Shown: in pieces, positions 34,790 through 43,094 of the stretch
Layout: each line of letters starts with the position of its first letter
How positions within the stretch are numbered: the first letter of the stretch is position 1
Assembly: GCA_902524105.1 (NCBI GenBank)
Contig: CABZCD010000002.1
Coordinates: 1 to 43,334 of the forward strand
Origin: an uncultured Pelagibacteraceae bacterium
GTDB taxonomy: Bacteria; Pseudomonadota; Alphaproteobacteria; Pelagibacterales; Pelagibacteraceae
Length of the DNA: 43,334 nucleotides
Direction of reading: 5' to 3'
The notes under the pieces: model-generated
What the model saw: only the letters and a program-made list of their open reading frames with translations
The model's database searches: none
What the model was told of the DNA's origin: nothing
Made by a program: the position numbers and the translations under genes

Positions 34790-35652
34790 TTAAAAAAGGA
34801 ATAATTTTAGCTGGTGGTCTTGGTACACGGATGAGTCCAATAACAAAATCTGTAAATAAACAACTTCTGCCAATTTATGATAAACCATTAATATATTATC
34901 CATTATCTGTGCTTATGCTTGCAGGTATAAAAGAAGTTCTGATAATAGTTAATAGAGGTCAAGTAAGTCAATTTAAAAAGGTTTTAAAAAATGGAGAAAG
35001 TTTTGGTATTAGAATACATTATAAAGAACAAAAACAACCAAACGGTTTGCCTGAGGCATTTATTATTGGTGAAAAATTTATCGATAAAAATGGTGTAGCG
35101 CTAATTCTAGGAGATAATTTTTTTTATGCTCAAAGTTTAACTAAAACTTTGCAAAACGCAACTAAGCTAAAAAATGGGGCAAAAGTTTTTTTGCATCCTG
35201 TTAGTAATCCAAAACTTTACGGAATAGCTTCGATAAAGAATAAAAAAATCGTAAGCTTAAAAGAAAAACCTACGTCTGCAAATTCTAATTTAGCAGTTAC
35301 AGGTTTATATTTTTTTGACAAAAATGTTGTTAGTATTAGTAAAACACTTAAACCATCAAAGAGAAAAGAATTAGAGATTATTGATCTTTTAAACATATAT
35401 AGAAAAAAAAATAGACTAAGCGCAGAATTTTTAGGAAGAGGCGGTGCTTGGTTAGACGCTGGATCTATAGATGATTATTATGATACAACTTCTTTTGTTT
35501 CAACTATACAAAAGAGACAGGGTTTTAAAATTGCTTGCCTAGAGGAAATTGCATTTACAAAAAAATGGATAAATAAGAATACCTTAAAAGATAGTATCAA
35601 ATTTTATGGTAATTGCGATTATTCAAAGTATTTAAGACGACTATTATTTTAA
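34786..35652 (+). CDS. rmlA: Glucose-1-phosphate thymidylyltransferase
   Basis: Activates glucose 1-phosphate with dTTP to dTDP-glucose, substrate of the adjacent RmlB. The 288-residue chain begins GIILAGGLGTRMSPITKSVN (about 5-24), the nucleotidyltransferase loop, then KQLLPIYDKPLIYYPL. ALILGDNFFYAQ near 105-116 contains the metal-binding Asp. EKPTSANSNLAVTGLYFFD and GRGGAWLDAGSIDDY further support RmlA over GalU. The first loop reads GLGTRMS instead of the common GSGTRLY. Coupled to rmlB; the 3' end overlaps the convergent DUF4422-like gene by 4 bp. Confidence 0.95.
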   Translation: MIKKGIILAGGLGTRMSPITKSVNKQLLPIYDKPLIYYPLSVLMLAGIKEVLIIVNRGQVSQFKKVLKNGESFGIRIHYKEQKQPNGLPEAFIIGEKFIDKNGVALILGDNFFYAQSLTKTLQNATKLKNGAKVFLHPVSNPKLYGIASIKNKKIVSLKEKPTSANSNLAVTGLYFFDKNVVSISKTLKPSKRKELEIIDLLNIYRKKNRLSAEFLGRGGAWLDAGSIDDYYDTTSFVSTIQKRQGFKIACLEEIAFTKKWINKNTLKDSIKFYGNCDYSKYLRRLLF

Positions 35653-36470
35653 TTCGCGCCAATATCATGAAATAGAATTGGTAATTCTTTAAATTTAGCA
35701 TTTTTTTTAAACCAATAAGACATGAATCTTTCCGCTAAAAAACCGTATATTCTTGTTAATCCATAACCTTTAAGATCTTTAAAACCAAATAATTGTTCAC
35801 ATTTTTCTAGCCAAGGAAAAATTTCATTATAGTATGAATTTAATAGTTTTTTGGATTTACAAATGAACATATTATGAGGATTAAAAGATACTTCTTTGTT
35901 TACAAAATTTCTGAAATCAACTTTATTTTCCTGGTCTAGCAAGTCTATTGCTTTATCTAAATTGTCTCTACCATGCATTAAATCAAAGTGAAATTTTATA
36001 TTTCTTGCTTTCTCATTAAACAATACTTTGGGATTAGACGCCACTAAAGGAAAACCATTTTTTAAAAATTTCATTATTTTCCTTTTATTTACAAAAAAAG
36101 GATCTCCTAAAATTACTTCAAATTGGCTGAAATCATCGGGAATTTTTTTTAAAACTTTATTATTTAAATTACTTAAATTTAATTCATTGTTAGGAGTAAA
36201 ATTTAAAGCCCAAAATTTTCTATATTGACAAAATCCAATCCATTCTTGATTTATATGATTTAAATAGTTTTTCCATAACCAATAATGAAAAGTATATTCT
36301 CCATAATATTTGTTTTTATGAGATATATTAATTCCATTTTTATCACCTAAACAATCTTTGGGGAAAAGTTTTTCTCCTAATCCAACAGGAGTATAATCTA
36401 AAGTTTTGATAAACTTAAGATGAGATGGCTCTAATGTTAGACAGAACATTCTTAAATTTTTTTCATTCAT
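35649..36470 (-). CDS. DUF4422-like putative glycosyltransferase
   Basis: A 273-residue soluble protein. Motifs fit the DUF4422 group, a set of predicted glycosyltransferases in polysaccharide loci: GEYTFHYWLWKNYL near 57-70, EWIGFCQYRKFWAL near 76-89 (compare the usual D-Y-I-G-L-C-H-Y-R-R), and GLTRIYGFLAERFMSYWF near 237-254. Recognition is from these blocks only. It follows the GT2 gene by 4 bp and the tRNA-Met gene beyond that, on the same strand. Activity and sugar are unknown. Confidence 0.68.
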   Translation of the reverse strand: MNEKNLRMFCLTLEPSHLKFIKTLDYTPVGLGEKLFPKDCLGDKNGINISHKNKYYGEYTFHYWLWKNYLNHINQEWIGFCQYRKFWALNFTPNNELNLSNLNNKVLKKIPDDFSQFEVILGDPFFVNKRKIMKFLKNGFPLVASNPKVLFNEKARNIKFHFDLMHGRDNLDKAIDLLDQENKVDFRNFVNKEVSFNPHNMFICKSKKLLNSYYNEIFPWLEKCEQLFGFKDLKGYGLTRIYGFLAERFMSYWFKKNAKFKELPILFHDIGAN

Positions 36471-36474
36471 AATT

Positions 36475-37347
36475 TTATTTCAATTTTGGTCTAAATAAGG
36501 ATTTTTTCAAAAAGATAGAGTTAAAAATTCCAGATAAGCTTGCCGCATGAAGCTTAAGATGAAAAAAATTAAGTCTGAATATTGAAGCAATGATACCTAA
36601 TAAACTTTGATAGATATTTGGTATCACTTTTTTTAAGGCATAAGGAAAATTAAAATTTTTTTTAAAAAAATAAAATTTTGACCAACTAAAATGCCAATTC
36701 CTATTTATTAAGATTTCATTAACATATTTCTTTTTTGTGGAGCCAGTTCCTATATGTTCAAAATTTAAATTTTTAATAACGTACATCTTATGATTTTTAT
36801 TCATAAGTTCATTACATAGATCTATTGTTTCAAAATACATAAAATAATTTTCGTCCAATATCTTTGTAGATTTGAATTTTTTTTTGTTAATAATACAAAA
36901 ACACCAATCAATTTCTTTAACATTTTCAATAATAAAATTCTTAACTTTTTTAAGTCTGCTAGGGCTATCTCTATTAAATGAACTAAAATTTTTATAAATA
37001 TTTTGATTCCTATATTCTGGAGCAATTAAAGTGAAATTTTTAAAACTATTTAATAATTTTTCTATACTATGTATTAGGTTTTTGTTTATTATAACATCAG
37101 GAGTTAATGTCAAAACAATATCATTTTTACAATTTTTAAGTGCCAAATTAAAAGCCTTAGCATATCCTAAGTTTTCTTTAGGAATAATTACTTTAGTATT
37201 TTTAAATTTTTTTTCAATTTTGCTTTTCATCGATTTTAATTGAGAATTTTCAACGATTATAATTTGATGTTTTTTTGGAAAATTTTTCAACAGCTTTTTT
37301 AATAAATGCTCACTTTGAAAAGATATTATAACAATTGATAATTTCAT
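36475..37347 (-). CDS. Family 2 glycosyltransferase (rhamnosyltransferase-like), paralog B
   Basis: A 290-residue GT-A fold transferase. SIVIISFQSEHLL near 4-16, IIIVENSQ near 29-36, ENLGYAKAFNLAL near 58-70 and the metal region LTPDVIIN near 81-88 are present. The catalytic acid region is YFMYFETIDLCNE near 163-175. Order, length and C-terminal block (NWHFSWSKFYFFKKNF, ending FRPKLK) mirror the GT2 at 32845-33690, indicating duplication. Its start codon is only 8 bp from the 3' end of tRNA-Met on the same strand, so it is probably cotranscribed with the tRNA. Confidence 0.83.
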   Translation of the reverse strand: MKLSIVIISFQSEHLLKKLLKNFPKKHQIIIVENSQLKSMKSKIEKKFKNTKVIIPKENLGYAKAFNLALKNCKNDIVLTLTPDVIINKNLIHSIEKLLNSFKNFTLIAPEYRNQNIYKNFSSFNRDSPSRLKKVKNFIIENVKEIDWCFCIINKKKFKSTKILDENYFMYFETIDLCNELMNKNHKMYVIKNLNFEHIGTGSTKKKYVNEILINRNWHFSWSKFYFFKKNFNFPYALKKVIPNIYQSLLGIIASIFRLNFFHLKLHAASLSGIFNSIFLKKSLFRPKLK

Positions 37348-37355
37348 AGTTTTGA

Positions 37356-37432
37356 TGGTAGCGAGGGGCGGAGTCGAACCGCCGACCCCAGGCTTATGAG
37401 TCCTGTGCTCTAACCAACTGAGCTACCTCGCC
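37356..37432 (-). tRNA. tRNA-Met (anticodon CAT), elongator type
   Basis: The minus strand folds as a 77-nt cloverleaf. The acceptor is GGCGAGG pairing with CCTCGCT (first pair G-U), the D-arm is GCTCAGTTGGTTAGAGC, the anticodon loop CTCATAA holds CAT, and the T-arm loop is GGTTCGACTCC. A73 and the 3' CCA are encoded. The body resembles alphaproteobacterial elongator tRNA-Met. Initiator features (C1-A72 mismatch, three G-C pairs in the anticodon stem) are absent, and it does not look like tRNA-Ile with lysidine, though that reading is not fully excluded by sequence. Confidence 0.93.
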
Positions 37433-37444
37433 AAATTAAGATCA

Positions 37445-37472
37445 GTTATATTACATTCTAAATTTCGTTCAA
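37445..37472 (-). promoter_or_regulatory. Putative sigma70-type promoter of tRNA-Met
   Basis: On the minus strand, TTGAAC (37467-37472) and TATAAC (37445-37450) are separated by 16 bp, and the -10 element ends 12 bp before the tRNA 5' end. The match is good, but in DNA this AT-rich chance resemblance is common. Confidence 0.5.
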
Positions 37473-37496
37473 TAAACATTTTTAATTAAGATTGCG

Positions 37497-38291
37497 CTAG
37501 TCAGAAAATGAGAAAAATAAATCTTCTTTATATGGATTATTTGGATAATCTAAGTTTTTAATTGGAAATTTTTTGACGTACTCTCCACTATCTTTTTGAT
37601 AATCTTTATTTATAAAAGTTAATTCTAAAGCGATAGGTAAACCAGATTCTAATTTTTCGCAGTGATTATTACCATGTATGTGAATAATATTAAAATCCTT
37701 TTTAATTTTTTTAACAGCCTCAGTAAAAATTTCCTCATTTTGATCCAAGCAGTGAAACTCAAATATAATCATAGCAATTTTTGATTTATATTTAATTATA
37801 TCATTTATTAATTTAAATTCAGTTCCTTCAATATCAATTTTTAATACAACTTTTTTTTCATTGGGTATTCTTGAAAATACTTTATCAATATCCGCATCAT
37901 TTTTATTTTTTTTAATATTTGTAATTTTTTCTTGATAAAATTTTACCGAGTCAATTTTAAAAAAATCTAAATAATTCTTTAATAAAGTTATTCTTATTTT
38001 TAAATCATTGTATTTGCATCTAAATGTTAAAAATCTTTTTAAATACTTTAAAATTTCTTTTATATATGGTTTTTTACTTACAAAACAATCGTACATGAAA
38101 ATTTTTACTTTTTTATTAATTTTAATGTAGTCTAGCTCGAAAGACCAATCAGATCCCATTCCAAAGCTTATTAAATAATCAACGCTAGCTACAACCTTCT
38201 CATCTACAATATAGCCACCATCGGCTTCTCTTCCAACTCGAATAAGATTTTGGTTTTTAAGAGGTTTTAAAAAATTAAATTTTTTGTCCAT
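37497..38291 (-). CDS. FkbM-type SAM-dependent methyltransferase
   Basis: A 264-residue protein from ATG 38289-38291 (a TTG lies one codon earlier). VGREADGGYIVDE near 18-30 and LISFGMGSDWSFELDYI near 41-57 form the SAM-binding N-half, in which the usual glycine loop is reduced to FGMGSDW. VVLKIDIEGTEFKLIND near 147-163 is the FkbM-family hallmark (D-I-E-G). IHIHGNNHC near 206-214 and ALELTFIN near 224-231 follow. FkbM enzymes O-methylate sugars or polyketides; here a glycan is likely. Unlinked by strand to the plus-strand trio that begins 137 bp away. Confidence 0.75.
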   Translation of the reverse strand: MDKKFNFLKPLKNQNLIRVGREADGGYIVDEKVVASVDYLISFGMGSDWSFELDYIKINKKVKIFMYDCFVSKKPYIKEILKYLKRFLTFRCKYNDLKIRITLLKNYLDFFKIDSVKFYQEKITNIKKNKNDADIDKVFSRIPNEKKVVLKIDIEGTEFKLINDIIKYKSKIAMIIFEFHCLDQNEEIFTEAVKKIKKDFNIIHIHGNNHCEKLESGLPIALELTFINKDYQKDSGEYVKKFPIKNLDYPNNPYKEDLFFSFSD

Positions 38292-38427
38292 CAATTATAA
38301 AATATTTTATCTATTTTAATTTCCTTTAAAAGGTAAAAAAACAAAATTTATAGCACTAATTTAAGTATTTCTTTTGAATAAATTAAGTGACTTATGAAAA
38401 GTGATTTGATAATAGTTTGTTTATACA

Positions 38428-39045
38428 ATGGATGAATTAAAAGCATTAATACTATTAATATCGAGTGGATTAATAATAAGATATTCTTTAACGTTAACTG
38501 GTCAAGCGTGGGCAAAATCTCATTCTCAAACTGTCGCCTTTATGATTTTACCAGTAATCACCTACGTAATTACAAAAACAATTGCTGGTAACATAGCTTT
38601 ATCACTTGGAATGATTGGTGCTTTATCAATTGTAAGGTTTAGACACCCAGTAAAAAGTGCTTTAGAGTTAATAATGTACTTTGATCTTATAACAATTGGT
38701 ATTGCAACGAGTGTTAGAACTAAATGGGCTATTCAACTAGTATTATGCACTGTCATAATAATTTTTGCAGTAAAATTTATACAAAAAATTTTAAATAAAT
38801 CAGGTTCGTCTTTTTATAACATGTCTTTTAATGAGGGTAATACTGCTAACACTATTGAAATTGTCTCAAAACAAAAAATTGAATTTATTGAAAAAAGTGA
38901 GTTCTTATTAAATTCTTTAAATGATAAAAATAATCAAGAATTTACTTACAGATTATCTTTTAATAATAAAAAAGAGTTACGAGATTTTAAAGTTAAGTTG
39001 GAAAATGATAAAAATATTGAAAGAGTAAATACTATCTATAATTAA
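38428..39045 (+). CDS. DUF4956 membrane protein
   Basis: A 205-residue protein with about four hydrophobic helices in its first 115 residues, then a soluble domain of about 90. The hallmark GMIGALSIVRFRHPVKSAL (about 71-89) matches DUF4956 as I recall it (G-M-V/I-G-A-L-S-I-V-R-F-R). It is the first of three plus-strand genes with tight spacing (3 bp to the CotH-like gene, which is 12 bp from the VTC gene). DUF4956, CotH and VTC domains recur together in distant bacteria, so it probably forms part of a membrane-linked system with them. No biochemical activity is known to me. Confidence 0.82.
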   Translation: MDELKALILLISSGLIIRYSLTLTGQAWAKSHSQTVAFMILPVITYVITKTIAGNIALSLGMIGALSIVRFRHPVKSALELIMYFDLITIGIATSVRTKWAIQLVLCTVIIIFAVKFIQKILNKSGSSFYNMSFNEGNTANTIEIVSKQKIEFIEKSEFLLNSLNDKNNQEFTYRLSFNNKKELRDFKVKLENDKNIERVNTIYN

Positions 39046-39048
39046 ATT

Positions 39049-41388
39049 ATGAAAAAGATTGTTTTTCTTTTTTTTATTTTTACTTTTTTTTCTTTTGAAG
39101 TGCTGGGGGATAAAAAACTATACGAAAAAGATTTCACAGGCTGTAACTATAACATTAACGAAAAAAACCTTAAAGAAATCAATTATTTAAAAATAAAAAA
39201 AATTGGGGTAGATGTTCATAATTACAGAAACTGGATTGTAAATAGTATTAGGATATTAACCAGTCGATCACGATATGTTTCAGATACATATAAGCAAAGA
39301 TTTAAATCAAATATATCTGTTGAATTTGAGGACGGTACTTTTTGTAACTTTACAGGAAGAATTAGGCATCATGGGGATGAAAAAGATCACATTAGTCTAA
39401 CAGGAAACACAATTACACAAAGTATAGATGTACATTTAGATAATGGAAATATAAGAGGAATTACTAAATTTAAACTTCTTAGGCCAAATACAAGAGGAAA
39501 GCTTGAAGACGAAATTTTTTTAACAGAACTTCTCAGGAACTTAAATTTTTTAGCACCAAGAACTATGAGAGTTGATGTTAGAATTAATGAAGCAAATTCT
39601 GTTATGATTTTTCAAGAAAAAGCGGCAAAGGAGTTATTAGAGTTCAATAATAGAAGAGAGGGACCAATATTTGAAGGTGACGAAAGATTTTTTTTTAGAA
39701 CCGTAAAAAAATTACCATCTAATCAAAAAAGTAATTGGGATATTGGTGTCGTACCACTAATGAACAAAAGTGTTAAACATCTTTTGGCACGTCAAGTTAA
39801 TACTAATATAATGCAAAAAAGTGATGGTTTGAATAAGATGTCTTTCAACTCTTCAACAAACCTTAATTTAATATATCTTTATTACTCAAATAGATTCCAA
39901 GATGGAACAAATAATTTTAATTATTTTGATTATGACTTAGATAACACTTTACTTGCTATGTTTAACCCGGAAAATATAATGAAATTAGATGCATATAATC
40001 TACTTATTCAATCTACAAATAGTCAACACGGTTTAGCTGCTAATAACAGAAAATTTTTTTGGAACTCTATTGAAAATTACTATGAACCAATAAATTATGA
40101 CTCAAATCCAAACATAGATTTAAAAAAACTAATTACAACAACGGCGATATACAGGCTTCCCATATCAGAAAGCTTTATAAAGGCTTTTGGGTTTCTCGAA
40201 GAAAAACTTCTAAATCTGAATTTAAAAAATGTAAGCGCTAACATTGATAATTCTGGAATTAACATGACAGAAAAAGAAGTCTCTGAGAAAGTTAATAAGA
40301 TATTAAATAATCTTAATGTAATAAAAATTAATTACTTAAATATAGATAATCAAGCGTTGCTAGAGCATAATAAATTTAAACCTATAGATAATTTATTGGA
40401 TAGATTTAATGAAACTTTGAATGAAGTAGAGCCAAATGTTTTTCTTGTGAAATATAATGAAAAAAATGGAAATTTACAAAGATGTAAAATCTTTTTAAAA
40501 GACTGTAAAGATTACAATTTTACTCAAGAAAACTTAACAGATTTATTAGAAGGTGAATTGATATTAAATGAAAAAATATATCAATTTTTAGGGAAAAGCT
40601 TCAATTTTGATAGTATCAAAAAGAATAGAAATTTTAACAAAATTAATTTTGGTGACTCAAATATCTTTTATGAAGATGGAATAACCTTAAAAATAGATCA
40701 ACAAAATAAATTGTTAGAAATCATTCAAAATGAAGTGGGATCTAGAGCTTATATTATAAACGGAACTTTATCTGATCTTAAAATGAAGTTTTATGGTTTA
40801 AATTATAAAATGACAACCACAAAGCCAAAAAATTTTCCTAATGATAGTAGCGGACTGACAGGTTGCTTATCATTAATAAATTTAGAGGTTAAGAACATTG
40901 ATTTGTTTGCTGAAAATTCAAATTGTGAAGATGCAATTAATTTAATTAATGTAAAAGGTTCGGTCAACGAAGTCATTGTCAAAAATTCATATAGTGACGG
41001 TTTTGATGTAGATTTCTCTAATGTTAAAATTAAAAACTTAAACATTCAAAATTCAAAAAATGATTGTGTAGATTTTTCCTCTGGAAATTATGTTTTAGGT
41101 GAATTAATTTTAAATAATTGTGGAGATAAAGCTTTATCTGTTGGAGAAGGGTCTAAAATAAATATTCAAAACTTAAAGGCGTCAAATTCGAACATGGGTG
41201 TGGCATCAAAGGATAGCTCTATTGTTAATTTAGATAATTTAAAAGTTAATAATGTATCAACATGTTTAGCCGCTTATAAAAAAAAACAAGAATTTAATGG
41301 AGGAGTGATTAATATAAATAATAATTTTTATTGTAATAATTTTAAGGATAAACTAACAACAGATGAGTTTTCTATAATTAATAACTAA
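39049..41388 (+). CDS. Secreted CotH-like kinase-fold protein with C-terminal beta-helix
   Basis: A 779-residue protein. Residues 1-20 are a signal peptide ending EVLGD. Residues about 85-360 resemble the CotH family (atypical protein kinases such as spore-coat CotH): RIRHHGDEKDH near 104-114, KFKLLRPNTRGKLEDEIF near 140-157, Glu190 in IFQEKA (ATP-site candidate), Asp314 in MKLDAYN, then NNRKFFWN near 332-339 and Asp351 in EPINYDSN, where CotH has the metal-binding WDxD. A middle region with little similarity follows. Residues about 610-770 carry repeated V/I-x-N-x-N/D strands such as VIVKNSYSDGFDVDFSNVKI, typical of a right-handed beta-helix. Part of the DUF4956-CotH-VTC trio; target unknown. 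DxD-like changes leave catalysis unproven. Confidence 0.72.
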   Translation: MKKIVFLFFIFTFFSFEVLGDKKLYEKDFTGCNYNINEKNLKEINYLKIKKIGVDVHNYRNWIVNSIRILTSRSRYVSDTYKQRFKSNISVEFEDGTFCNFTGRIRHHGDEKDHISLTGNTITQSIDVHLDNGNIRGITKFKLLRPNTRGKLEDEIFLTELLRNLNFLAPRTMRVDVRINEANSVMIFQEKAAKELLEFNNRREGPIFEGDERFFFRTVKKLPSNQKSNWDIGVVPLMNKSVKHLLARQVNTNIMQKSDGLNKMSFNSSTNLNLIYLYYSNRFQDGTNNFNYFDYDLDNTLLAMFNPENIMKLDAYNLLIQSTNSQHGLAANNRKFFWNSIENYYEPINYDSNPNIDLKKLITTTAIYRLPISESFIKAFGFLEEKLLNLNLKNVSANIDNSGINMTEKEVSEKVNKILNNLNVIKINYLNIDNQALLEHNKFKPIDNLLDRFNETLNEVEPNVFLVKYNEKNGNLQRCKIFLKDCKDYNFTQENLTDLLEGELILNEKIYQFLGKSFNFDSIKKNRNFNKINFGDSNIFYEDGITLKIDQQNKLLEIIQNEVGSRAYIINGTLSDLKMKFYGLNYKMTTTKPKNFPNDSSGLTGCLSLINLEVKNIDLFAENSNCEDAINLINVKGSVNEVIVKNSYSDGFDVDFSNVKIKNLNIQNSKNDCVDFSSGNYVLGELILNNCGDKALSVGEGSKINIQNLKASNSNMGVASKDSSIVNLDNLKVNNVSTCLAAYKKKQEFNGGVININNNFYCNNFKDKLTTDEFSIINN

Positions 41389-41400
41389 ATTAAAACAATT

Positions 41401-41994
41401 ATGAGCTTCAGAAAAGAAGAAAAACTTTATATCAAATCCGAACATATTTTTAATTTTAAAAAATTTCTAGAGGATCGTTCTGTAAAAAATTTATATAAGC
41501 CAAGAAAAATTAATAGTTTATATTTTGATAATTTAAATTTTGATATGTATAATGACTCTATCGAAGGTGTTGTACCAAGAAAAAAGATTAGAGTAAGAGA
41601 ATATCCAGGTGAAATCGATAAAAAATATTATTTAGAAATTAAACACTCATCTGTAGAGGGAAGATTCAAAACAAGAGAAATAGTTAAAAAAGAAAGATTT
41701 GAATTTTTAAAAAAAACAGGAATTTTAGACATTAGATATGGTACTTGCCTACCAAATTATTACGTTTCGTACGATAGAGAATATTTAATTATTAATGATG
41801 TTAGAATATCAATAGACACAAATCTTGTATATCAAGATTTTAAATCAAATTTAAAATATGCTGACAGAAATTGTATTGTTGAGTTGAAAACCTCAATTAA
41901 TAAAGATCATGATAAATTAATTGAAGAATTTCCTTTTCAAAGAATTAGGTTTTCAAAATACTGTTTTGCTGTTGAAAACTTAAGTTACAAATAA
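41401..41994 (+). CDS. VTC-domain protein (polyphosphate polymerase-like)
   Basis: A 197-residue protein with the triphosphate-tunnel fold of VTC proteins. It shows RKEEKLYIK near 4-12, INSLYFDN near 38-45, the basic strand RKKIRVREY (60-68), and LEIKHS (78-83) with Glu79 and Lys81. KTRE is near 90-93. VELKTS sits near 160-165, and a C-terminal RFSKYCFAVE is near 182-191. In yeast Vtc4 such residues line the polyphosphate-synthesising tunnel. In bacteria, members occur with CotH and DUF4956 and their product is not settled for me. It is third in the trio and ends 10 bp inside the convergent GT61 gene. Confidence 0.82.
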   Translation: MSFRKEEKLYIKSEHIFNFKKFLEDRSVKNLYKPRKINSLYFDNLNFDMYNDSIEGVVPRKKIRVREYPGEIDKKYYLEIKHSSVEGRFKTREIVKKERFEFLKKTGILDIRYGTCLPNYYVSYDREYLIINDVRISIDTNLVYQDFKSNLKYADRNCIVELKTSINKDHDKLIEEFPFQRIRFSKYCFAVENLSYK

Positions 41995-43094
41995 TTTAAT
42001 ATCTCTTTAAAATCCACTCTAATATATCCATGTTGATTGTTTTGATTAAATTTCTCAGGCACTTTTGCAATAGAGTTATAATTTAATGAGCACTTCTTAG
42101 CTAGGTTTTCATACATCATTCCAGCACCTGAAGGTTTAAGTTCAATAATTTTTGTTCCAGGTTTACAAAATACTAAGTTTGTAAATCCTCCTCCATGAAG
42201 ACCTATTATGATGTCTGCGTTTTGAAAAATTTTCACTTGTTTAACAAAAGATAAATTACTTAATTTAATGCTTTTAAAACCGATCTTATCTAGCTGACTT
42301 TTAATCTCATTATCATTTATAATTTTTCGCATCATGCTTAGATTTGAAGTTGCATCGCTCCTATCAATATAAATTTTTTTTGGTAAATCTTCGTTCTGAT
42401 TAATTTCAATTTCTTTTAAAAAAGTTTCTTGTAACCACCTTATTATCCACATCGGAACATTTTGAATTTCATCGGTTGCATTGTTTTTGATTACATAAGG
42501 ATGATCAGTACATATTATTTCTTCGCAAGATAAATGTCTGTTTTTTAAACTAGATAATCTTTTTGAATTTGGAATTTTAAAAAAATTAATGGTCTCTTGT
42601 TGAAATTTTTTTTCTAAATTAGGAAATAAAAAATAGTCTTTTTCATCAAAGGCTATCTTTTTTGAAAGTATCTTAATTCTAGGCAATACATCAAACATCC
42701 AATGCCAGTAATTATGATTTCCTGCGCCTCCAGTCAAAAGAGAAAACAATCTGTTATTTAATTTTTTTTTTAATCTTGGGGTGCCTTTATTTAAAACTAT
42801 ATTTTTTTTTATATCTTCAAATTTTACATCTCTTATTTGAAAAGAGGGGCCTTCAATAATCTTATTATCCTGAATAATAGCAGTATCATTTACAGTGTCT
42901 GTATAAATTCTTGCATGATAATTATAATAAATCTTATAATTAAAACTATCATCAACTTTAGATAATTCGACAAAAGAATTTTTGTCTGATCCTGCTTTTT
43001 TAAAATCTTTTATTTGCCCATATAAGATTTTAAATATCCCATAACCTGTTTTTTTAAATATAGATTGTAATTTTTTATTAATATTATTTATCAA
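41985..43094 (-). CDS. Family 61 glycosyltransferase (DUF563)
   Basis: A 369-residue soluble transferase that appears to begin at TTG 43092-43094, since no later Met would keep the N-terminal half. GGAGNHNYWHWMFDVLPRI near 117-135 is the GT61 hallmark. KIYIDRSDATSNLSMMRKI near 245-263 follows, and DIIIGLHGGGFTNLVFCKPG near 295-314 is the donor-site signature. GT61 enzymes in bacteria add xylose, GlcNAc or other sugars in polysaccharide clusters. It begins 7 bp downstream of the gene fragment at the right edge, so the two probably share a transcript. Confidence 0.85.
   Translation of the reverse strand: MINNINKKLQSIFKKTGYGIFKILYGQIKDFKKAGSDKNSFVELSKVDDSFNYKIYYNYHARIYTDTVNDTAIIQDNKIIEGPSFQIRDVKFEDIKKNIVLNKGTPRLKKKLNNRLFSLLTGGAGNHNYWHWMFDVLPRIKILSKKIAFDEKDYFLFPNLEKKFQQETINFFKIPNSKRLSSLKNRHLSCEEIICTDHPYVIKNNATDEIQNVPMWIIRWLQETFLKEIEINQNEDLPKKIYIDRSDATSNLSMMRKIINDNEIKSQLDKIGFKSIKLSNLSFVKQVKIFQNADIIIGLHGGGFTNLVFCKPGTKIIELKPSGAGMMYENLAKKCSLNYNSIAKVPEKFNQNNQHGYIRVDFKEILNYL

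Follow-up and report, generated by a model that had tools for sequence, protein, structure and literature searches.

What would a SAR11-type bacterium do with a gene for a secreted kinase-fold protein placed between genes for a membrane protein and a polyphosphate-polymerase-like protein? This question is raised by a 43,334-nucleotide stretch of DNA (the window; contig CABZCD010000002.1) from an uncultured Pelagibacteraceae bacterium, in which three tightly packed plus-strand genes encode a 205-residue DUF4956 membrane protein (38428..39045; open reading frame with PF16316), a secreted CotH-like/beta-helix protein of 779 residues (39049..41388; open reading frame with an AlphaFold2 model) and a 197-residue protein with a VTC (polyphosphate-polymerase, triphosphate-tunnel) domain (41401..41994; PF09359). 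An earlier note on this DNA had described the trio with spacers of 3 and then 12 bp, and the coordinates and gaps are confirmed, as are two of its labels, because the DUF4956 and VTC proteins both score above the Pfam cut-offs (42.4 against 30.6 bits and 82.3 against 23 bits, respectively). The host genome (737,563 bases; 66.7% complete) is of the SAR11 type, and the nearest named trio is that of the uncultured Pelagibacteraceae AG-912-A04 (L061; 96%). As a tentative answer, possible rather than probable, we propose a trans-envelope phosphate-polymer module, in which the trio would work as a pared-down VTC complex to which an enzyme on the outside has been added.

That these domains travel together in unrelated bacteria, as the earlier note had put forward, is borne out when genome contigs are scanned with the alignment of the family by a single pattern, a 9-residue beta-helix motif. 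The scan gave 343 relatives, and among the best 80, which were kept, all three genes are present in 67 loci; their sources are SAR11, SAR86, Roseobacter, Brevirhabdus, Amylibacter, Marinomonas, Actinomarina, Kordiimonadaceae and Saprospiraceae/other Bacteroidota. One copy of each gene in the order of the window and on one (plus) strand is seen in 61 of the 80, the median gaps being -4 and 3 bp. One or two partners are missing in the other 13, and a contig end explains nine of these: namely, the contig starts inside the CotH gene (L089, L096, L101, L105, L109 and L114), starts just before it, leaving no DUF4956 (L124 and L131), or ends inside it, leaving no VTC (L120). A contig end is no explanation in four loci; L116, from a deltaproteobacterium, lacks both partners, VTC is missing from L121 and L129 despite room for it downstream, and DUF4956 is missing from L122 despite room for it upstream. 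Furthermore, among 20 regions from 17 other VTC-bearing SAR11 genomes, 18 carry the complete trio on a single strand and the other two are truncated by a contig end, a count for which the profiles were partly built from those same regions. Many of the SAR11 loci (L) also come from the same genomes as the genome (G) set, and the two sets are hence not independent.

The DUF4956, CotH-like and VTC proteins diverge in step. Indeed, their identity matrices over 67 trios (the window, L048, L050 and 64 of the 80 loci, with short pieces dropped) agree with Mantel r values of 0.919, 0.929 and 0.900, and none of 999 permutations gave a value as high. The ratios of nonsynonymous to synonymous substitution rates between the window and L061 are 0.016 for DUF4956, 0.124 for the CotH-like protein and 0.337 for VTC. 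In the tree of the concatenated proteins, Marinomonas groups with one of the SAR11 loci (support 96), while Roseobacter is the partner of SAR86 (support 99), and these cross-class pairings suggest transfer of the trio between classes, with several long branches being unsure; no match was obtained by tblastn with the CotH-like protein against plasmids and phages or with VTC against plasmids. It had been supposed that a compact genome keeps the trio for a real benefit, but VTC was found in only 19 of the 150 genomes searched (its own genome included), all in one genus of 11, and several genomic places carry VTC or the trio among the SAR11 relatives, so that the trio is better regarded as an accessory module than as part of the SAR11 core. 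A divergent SAR11 trio (L032-L034, L036, L039 and L044), unlike those of glycan islands, occupies a place common to several genomes beside genes that we take to encode adenylyl-sulfate reductase.

The co-occurrence can also be judged against chance in a sample of 299 Pseudomonadota genomes that includes the genome of the window. DUF4956 is present in six of these (8 loci), VTC over its cut-off in five (7 loci; G303 adds a match that falls below it) and a Pfam CotH in 20, at 24 places of which one scores below the cut-off. All seven VTC loci over the cut-off, the window being one, adjoin DUF4956, and seven of the eight DUF4956 loci adjoin VTC, the one in G356 standing alone; at the genome level, the association has a Fisher p of 3e-10. 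This check, which the earlier note had proposed, is thus in favor of its idea. The third partner is variable at the seven loci: it is a Pfam CotH protein in three (G250 and twice in G186), the CotH-like protein in the window, and none in three (G232 and twice in G248), and 21 of the 24 Pfam CotH places lie away from DUF4956 and VTC. From the 7/7 adjacency and the loci with no CotH, therefore, DUF4956 and VTC are the core pair and the CotH-like protein is the usual third partner; this pair and a C-terminal beta-helix of the CotH-like protein had both been missed by the earlier note. Among 14 control genomes, counted per genome, three are positive for both DUF4956 and VTC (Bacteroides ihuae, Corynebacterium glutamicum and Methanosarcina acetivorans). 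A profile of the beta-helix, furthermore, is positive in five of the 289 genomes in a class sample; four of these are trios, the window included, and the fifth (G656) is a lone 400-residue beta-helix protein.

The three DUF4956-VTC loci with no CotH (L045:6621-9772, L046:5023-8012 and L047:6882-8284) are from the genomes G232 and G248, which belong to one family, and a PHO4-family transporter follows the pair directly in two of them (L045 and L046; 352 and 335 bits). Another locus of a different make-up, L025:2133-9751 from SAR11, has DUF4956, a 342-residue protein with no significant Pfam match, a CotH plus beta-helix protein (both Pfam-positive), VTC and a phosphoethanolamine-transferase-like gene; the product of the last, next to VTC, has a sulfatase fold (70.9 bits) and is CptA-like below the NCBIfam cut-off.

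VTC is the sole Pfam family matched by the 197-residue protein at E values up to 0.1, with no SPX domain found, and no signal sequence was read on it. Its profile matches yeast VTC4 (3g3q) at E 5.3e-15, and R4, K8, R64, R66, E79, K81, R126, R135, D139, E161, K163 and K186 are invariant in all 52 alignment rows. K8 and K186 correspond to K200 and K458 of VTC4, which are catalytic residues of the tunnel, and R64, R66 and E161 face R264, R266 and E426, as counted along the 3g3q alignment. A joint change of R264, R266 and E426 has been used to inactivate the yeast complex, which makes the polyphosphate stores of vacuoles, as the accessible part of the report describes (PMC9911596). Judged from the alignment, every polymerase or tunnel residue tested is kept in the window protein, which supports the earlier view of VTC as polyphosphate-polymerase-like.

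The DUF4956 protein is modeled (AlphaFold2; predicted local distance difference test score (pLDDT), 86.7; predicted template modeling score (pTM), 0.64) as five long helices (residues 2-23, 32-52, 56-72, 78-96 and 98-125) followed by a predicted soluble beta-alpha-beta-beta-alpha-beta domain at residues 138-205. R70, R72 and E80 are invariant in 65/65 rows and position 76 is always basic (K in 49, R in 16), which gives the loop joining helices 3 and 4 a basic R70-x-R72 plus K/R76 pattern; the positive-inside rule would place both the loop and the C-terminal domain on the cytosolic side. Foldseek with the model gave no match at E 0.001 or better, and the rows shown by VIA cover only about residues 134-205 (Z 7.3-8.5; a common, ferredoxin-like arrangement). 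A fold name for DUF4956 was hence dropped, the C-terminal part being a common arrangement and the helical part being barely tested, and an ACT/PII-like label for the former is to be read as a match to a common fold. With the same limit for the helical part, no channel or MgtC is among the structure matches listed.

The third label, CotH, stands by fold and fails by hidden Markov model (HMM). The 779-residue protein matches no Pfam family, PF08757 included, and only a chance-level nusG match is given by NCBIfam (E 0.024; 14.5 bits, the cut-off being 135.7); among 63 aligned family members, PF08757 is matched in six at E values up to 0.1 and missed in 57. The AlphaFold2 model, built from the window protein and 62 relatives (pLDDT 91.3; pTM 0.89), nonetheless has Bacillus cereus CotH (5jda; E 8.5e-9) as the top Foldseek match, and residues 48-430 (39190..40338, plus strand) are aligned by VIA-align with 5jd9 at Z 17.8 and a root-mean-square deviation of 4.6 over 301 residues. 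CotH is also the only sequence match of the family profile in the PDB up to E 1, at E 0.14. When compared with nine canonical CotH proteins, the HMM-HMM alignment has a probability of 95.5% and E 1.4e-8 over 133 columns in the first half only, and a second run (-M first -glob) gave 87% and E 4.3e-7 over 363 columns. A hydrophobic segment at the N terminus reads as signal-like.

The nine canonical CotH proteins of the phylum have two invariant Asp residues (the first in 9/9) that are 23 residues apart in the first row, which is the spacing of D228 and D251 in Bacillus subtilis CotH; the D228Q variant is described as inactive in the accessible part of the source (PMC7821199). Among the 63 aligned members, window included, the second Asp is kept throughout as D351. 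At the first site, H327 is found in 61/63, while position 328 is G in 36, A in 19, S in 3, H in 2, N in 2 and I in 1. The active site was read from spacing and motif, and the true Asp site could lie one residue away from H327; both positions were therefore counted, and no Asp occurs at either in any of the 63. Over positions 322 to 331, Asp is never present in more than 7/63 (position 326). The canonical Lys before Ser is also missing in the window, where T123 Q124 S125 is found, and more distant, PF08757-positive members such as L025 and L026 retain KK there. E190, K194, E198 and D351 are invariant (63/63). The CotH-like active site thus appears to be altered, and the domain would be either dead or engaged in other chemistry.

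Extra CotH-like genes were seen at some loci: two tandem trios with a third CotH-like gene in a Kordiimonadaceae metagenome-assembled genome (L117:7339-18232), three CotH-like genes in a single Saprospiraceae locus (L127), and a CotH-like gene for about 535 residues 5' of DUF4956 in two SAR11 loci (L055:5734-11003 and L093:3887-9174), which also hold an enlarged CotH-like protein of about 1000 residues.

The C-terminal region, residues 529-779 (40633..41385, plus strand), is a right-handed beta-helix in the AlphaFold2 model, for which the nearest solved folds in VIA-align are almost tied: phage tailspike (6w4q; Z 20.4), AlgE4 (2pyg; 19.9), polygalacturonase (1k5c; 18.9) and AlgG (4ozy; 18.3). 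The beta-helix core is the best-conserved part of the protein, with 33 of 161 positions conserved at 90% or more, compared with 20 of 383 in the CotH fold, and its charged residues form a ladder that hardly varies: E627, D628, D650, D653, D655, D672, D675, D693, K694, E700, K721, D722, K745, K746 and E748. The distances of 22, 22 and 21 residues between D628, D650, D672 and D693 suggest about one such Asp per helix turn. We take the motifs of the ladder to resemble active-site strings of GH28, but a single-sequence phmmer search reached 1k5c only at E 0.095 and the profile had no PDB match, and GH28 was accordingly reduced to a similarity of fold. In a viral structure library, three matches, none of them named, were at E 0.001 or better, and the rest were mostly of the beta-helix/tail-fiber type. 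The same ladder is seen in a stand-alone 400-residue protein (L150:6074-7276), and neither DUF4956 nor VTC was found in the 13 kb surrounding its gene.

How might these parts work together? Topology from sequence and model would fit a cytosolic, a membrane and a periplasmic protein, and the periplasm contains no ATP. VTC would make polyphosphate from ATP at the inner face of the membrane; the basic cytosolic loop of DUF4956 would bind it and let the chain through the membrane, with the ACT/PII-like domain acting as a regulator in place of SPX. The periplasmic CotH/beta-helix protein may then hold a glycan or another envelope polymer on its beta-helix and modify it with polyphosphate as a donor or building block; for SAR11, a surface glycan produced by the neighboring glycosyltransferases is the probable acceptor. 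The parts and their linkage are observed, and every transfer step is one that we infer. Support for the trans-envelope module comes from the 67 trios in 80 loci, the Mantel agreement and the 7/7 core pair; that for polyphosphate making from the retention of the R264, R266 and E426 equivalents; and that for a phosphate tie from the PHO4-family neighbors and the phosphoethanolamine-transferase-like gene. A tie to an envelope polymer is supported because the Gram-positive cousins adjoin pel and because, in Streptococcus intermedius, Pel decreases when the CotH gene is deleted and increases when the membrane gene is deleted, as described in the accessible part of the report (PMC12345266). There, the membrane protein is presented as a transmembrane and ACT-domain protein, which we take as DUF4956 (PMC12345266). 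These deletions would agree with an envelope-polymer role and not yet with a need for polyphosphate.

Several points weigh against the trans-envelope module. Deletion of the polyphosphate-polymerase gene of S. intermedius, SIR_1593, has no effect on aggregation or Pel reported in the part of the article available (PMC12345266). The motif seeds of our scan were found beside VTC, so that the scan may favor members of trios; neighbors were not used in it. No VTC channel subunit is among the matches of DUF4956 in profile and structure searches, and the channel role is thus drawn from the gene pairing and the basic loop. The CotH domain may be no more than an inactive scaffold. A profile of the beta-helix alone (29 rows) has no PDB sequence match up to E 1, for which reason the class of its substrate is a guess at the level of fold, and phage tailspikes rank as high as the enzymes of sugar polymers for this fold. 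NCBIfam, furthermore, ranks sulfate permease over PitA for the PHO4-family neighbors, both below the cut-off.

The rival that survives best, somewhat unlikely in our judgment, is a regulatory module, in which VTC and DUF4956 act as sensors of phosphate, or of a phosphorylated ligand, and adjust the export of a surface polymer, with the CotH-like domain as a pseudokinase scaffold and the polymer bound by the beta-helix. It would account for the missing catalytic-site Asp and, in the window, the missing canonical Lys, and for the ACT/PII-like domain of DUF4956, itself a match to no more than a common fold; it also suits S. intermedius, where Pel rises without the membrane gene and no effect of losing the VTC gene is reported in the portion of the article available. 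The complete retention of the tested polymerase residues in VTC (52/52) would nonetheless be unusual for a pure sensor, and the invariance of E190, K194, E198 and D351 suggests chemistry rather than a dead fold.

Quite unlikely is that the VTC-family protein has another tunnel activity (nucleotide cyclase, tripolyphosphatase or similar) and makes a small signal instead of polyphosphate. The triphosphate-tunnel superfamily fold does serve several chemistries, and the protein is small with no SPX found, but its best profile match is VTC4, the equivalents of R264, R266, E426 and K458 are kept, Pfam matches the VTC family only, and a PHO4-family neighbor is present at two loci.

Very unlikely, furthermore, is an ordinary secreted CotH kinase that lies beside a polyphosphate gene and uses ATP to phosphorylate proteins of the envelope, as happens on Bacillus spores. 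The fold and the D251 equivalent in 63/63 speak for it; the window protein lacks the canonical Lys and would act in a periplasm devoid of ATP, and Asp is absent from 327 and 328 and in at most 7/63 anywhere in 322-331, where CotH needs D228 according to the accessible part of the source (PMC7821199). The lack of Asp at the canonical catalytic site makes ordinary ATP-kinase action doubtful, and the idea of the earlier note that CotH phosphorylates an exported polymer or protein in this ordinary manner is not sustained.

Intracellular phosphate storage by VTC, also raised by that note, is equally improbable: yeast VTC does make vacuolar polyphosphate, as the accessible text states (PMC9911596), and no PPK1 match was found in the window's own, incomplete genome (66.7%), but 10 of the 25 genomes of the genus that were searched do have PPK1 (6 of 19 with VTC, all less than 90% complete, and 4 of 6 hand-picked others, a difference that may mean nothing), which makes a second cytosolic store less needed, and a phosphate store needs neither a secreted beta-helix protein nor a position in a glycan island.

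To return to the trans-envelope module, its most specific form is a bacterial VTC-type complex in its own right, in which cytosolic VTC makes polyphosphate, DUF4956 threads it through the membrane and the chain is the phosphoryl source for a repurposed CotH-fold enzyme on a glycan bound by the beta-helix. We consider this full version unlikely as it stands; if true, it would explain how an exported kinase-fold protein works without ATP. Direct tests are now opened for polyphosphate making by a bacterial VTC, for export by DUF4956 and for polyphosphate as a phosphate source of exported kinase-fold proteins.

The surroundings of the trio are those of a gene island of the surface-glycan type. A glycosyltransferase family 61 gene on the minus strand (41985..43094; PF04577, 95.8 bits) is convergent with the VTC gene and overlaps its end by 10 bp, and genes for DUF4422 (PF14393), a glycosyltransferase family 2 protein and an FkbM-methyltransferase-like protein lie on the minus strand upstream (35649..38294; Pfam/NCBIfam), the last scoring under both the Pfam and NCBIfam cut-offs. 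In a difference from the Gram-positive pel set, Pfam gave no DUF4832 in any of the seven genes scanned in this part of the window.

Parts of this arrangement have been met before. CotH, polyphosphate polymerase and DUF4956 domains were reported together in 2020 as accessory genes of Gram-positive pel operons (PMC7112168, as far as its accessible text goes), and VTC and CotH genes occur together in NELoc-2 of Clostridium perfringens (PMC2879425 and PMC11677781, in the parts available). The accessible part of the former describes "VTC-tubulin" pairs, with "tubulin/FtsZ" proteins of 222 and 226 residues listed as cytoplasmic-membrane (PMC2879425); these may be DUF4956 proteins. Outside pel and C. 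perfringens, we found no published record of the trio in the open-licence literature. As far as searched, therefore, its pel-free distribution, the core pair, a CotH/beta-helix family mostly missed by Pfam and the apparently changed active site of this family are new.

Compared with the eukaryotic VTC complex (Vtc1/3/4; 3g3q, 8i6v and 7ytj), the bacterial set is alike in its tunnel domain, where the catalytic residues are the same, in a membrane partner that carries basic residues and in a separate, possibly regulatory domain; it differs in that no SPX was found, in having no vacuole and an extra secreted protein, and in that no Vtc transmembrane chain is among the DUF4956 matches. The Bacillus spore-coat kinase CotH (5jd9 and 5jda) is alike in fold (Z 17.8) and in the second active-site Asp, whereas the trio protein has no catalytic-site Asp, no canonical Lys in the window, a fused beta-helix and no PF08757 match in 57/63. 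As to the beta-helix enzymes of polysaccharides (AlgE4, AlgG, GH28 polygalacturonase and RbmB), the fold is shared (Z 16.8-19.9), whereas the trio domain has no PDB profile match, a D/K/E ladder of its own and an equal match to the tailspike 6w4q.

The Gram-positive pel set, finally, has the same three domain types side by side and is tied to a polymer of the envelope; deleting either of two of its three genes changes the amount of Pel. It differs in that PelG (PF16933) is not matched in any of the 19 VTC-bearing SAR11 genomes, all less than 90% complete, whereas it is matched in one of the 14 control genomes, Thermotoga maritima; and the CotH partner in S. intermedius is described, in the accessible part of the report, with an FN3 domain instead of a beta-helix. 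The authors of the 2025 study, so far as its available text tells, failed to find the three-domain arrangement outside pel (PMC12345266), whereas it is frequent in the marine bacteria examined here. What the literature that we found holds as an unexplained Gram-positive add-on to pel, and in part in C. perfringens, is thus seen here as a free-standing and apparently exchanged module of ocean bacteria.

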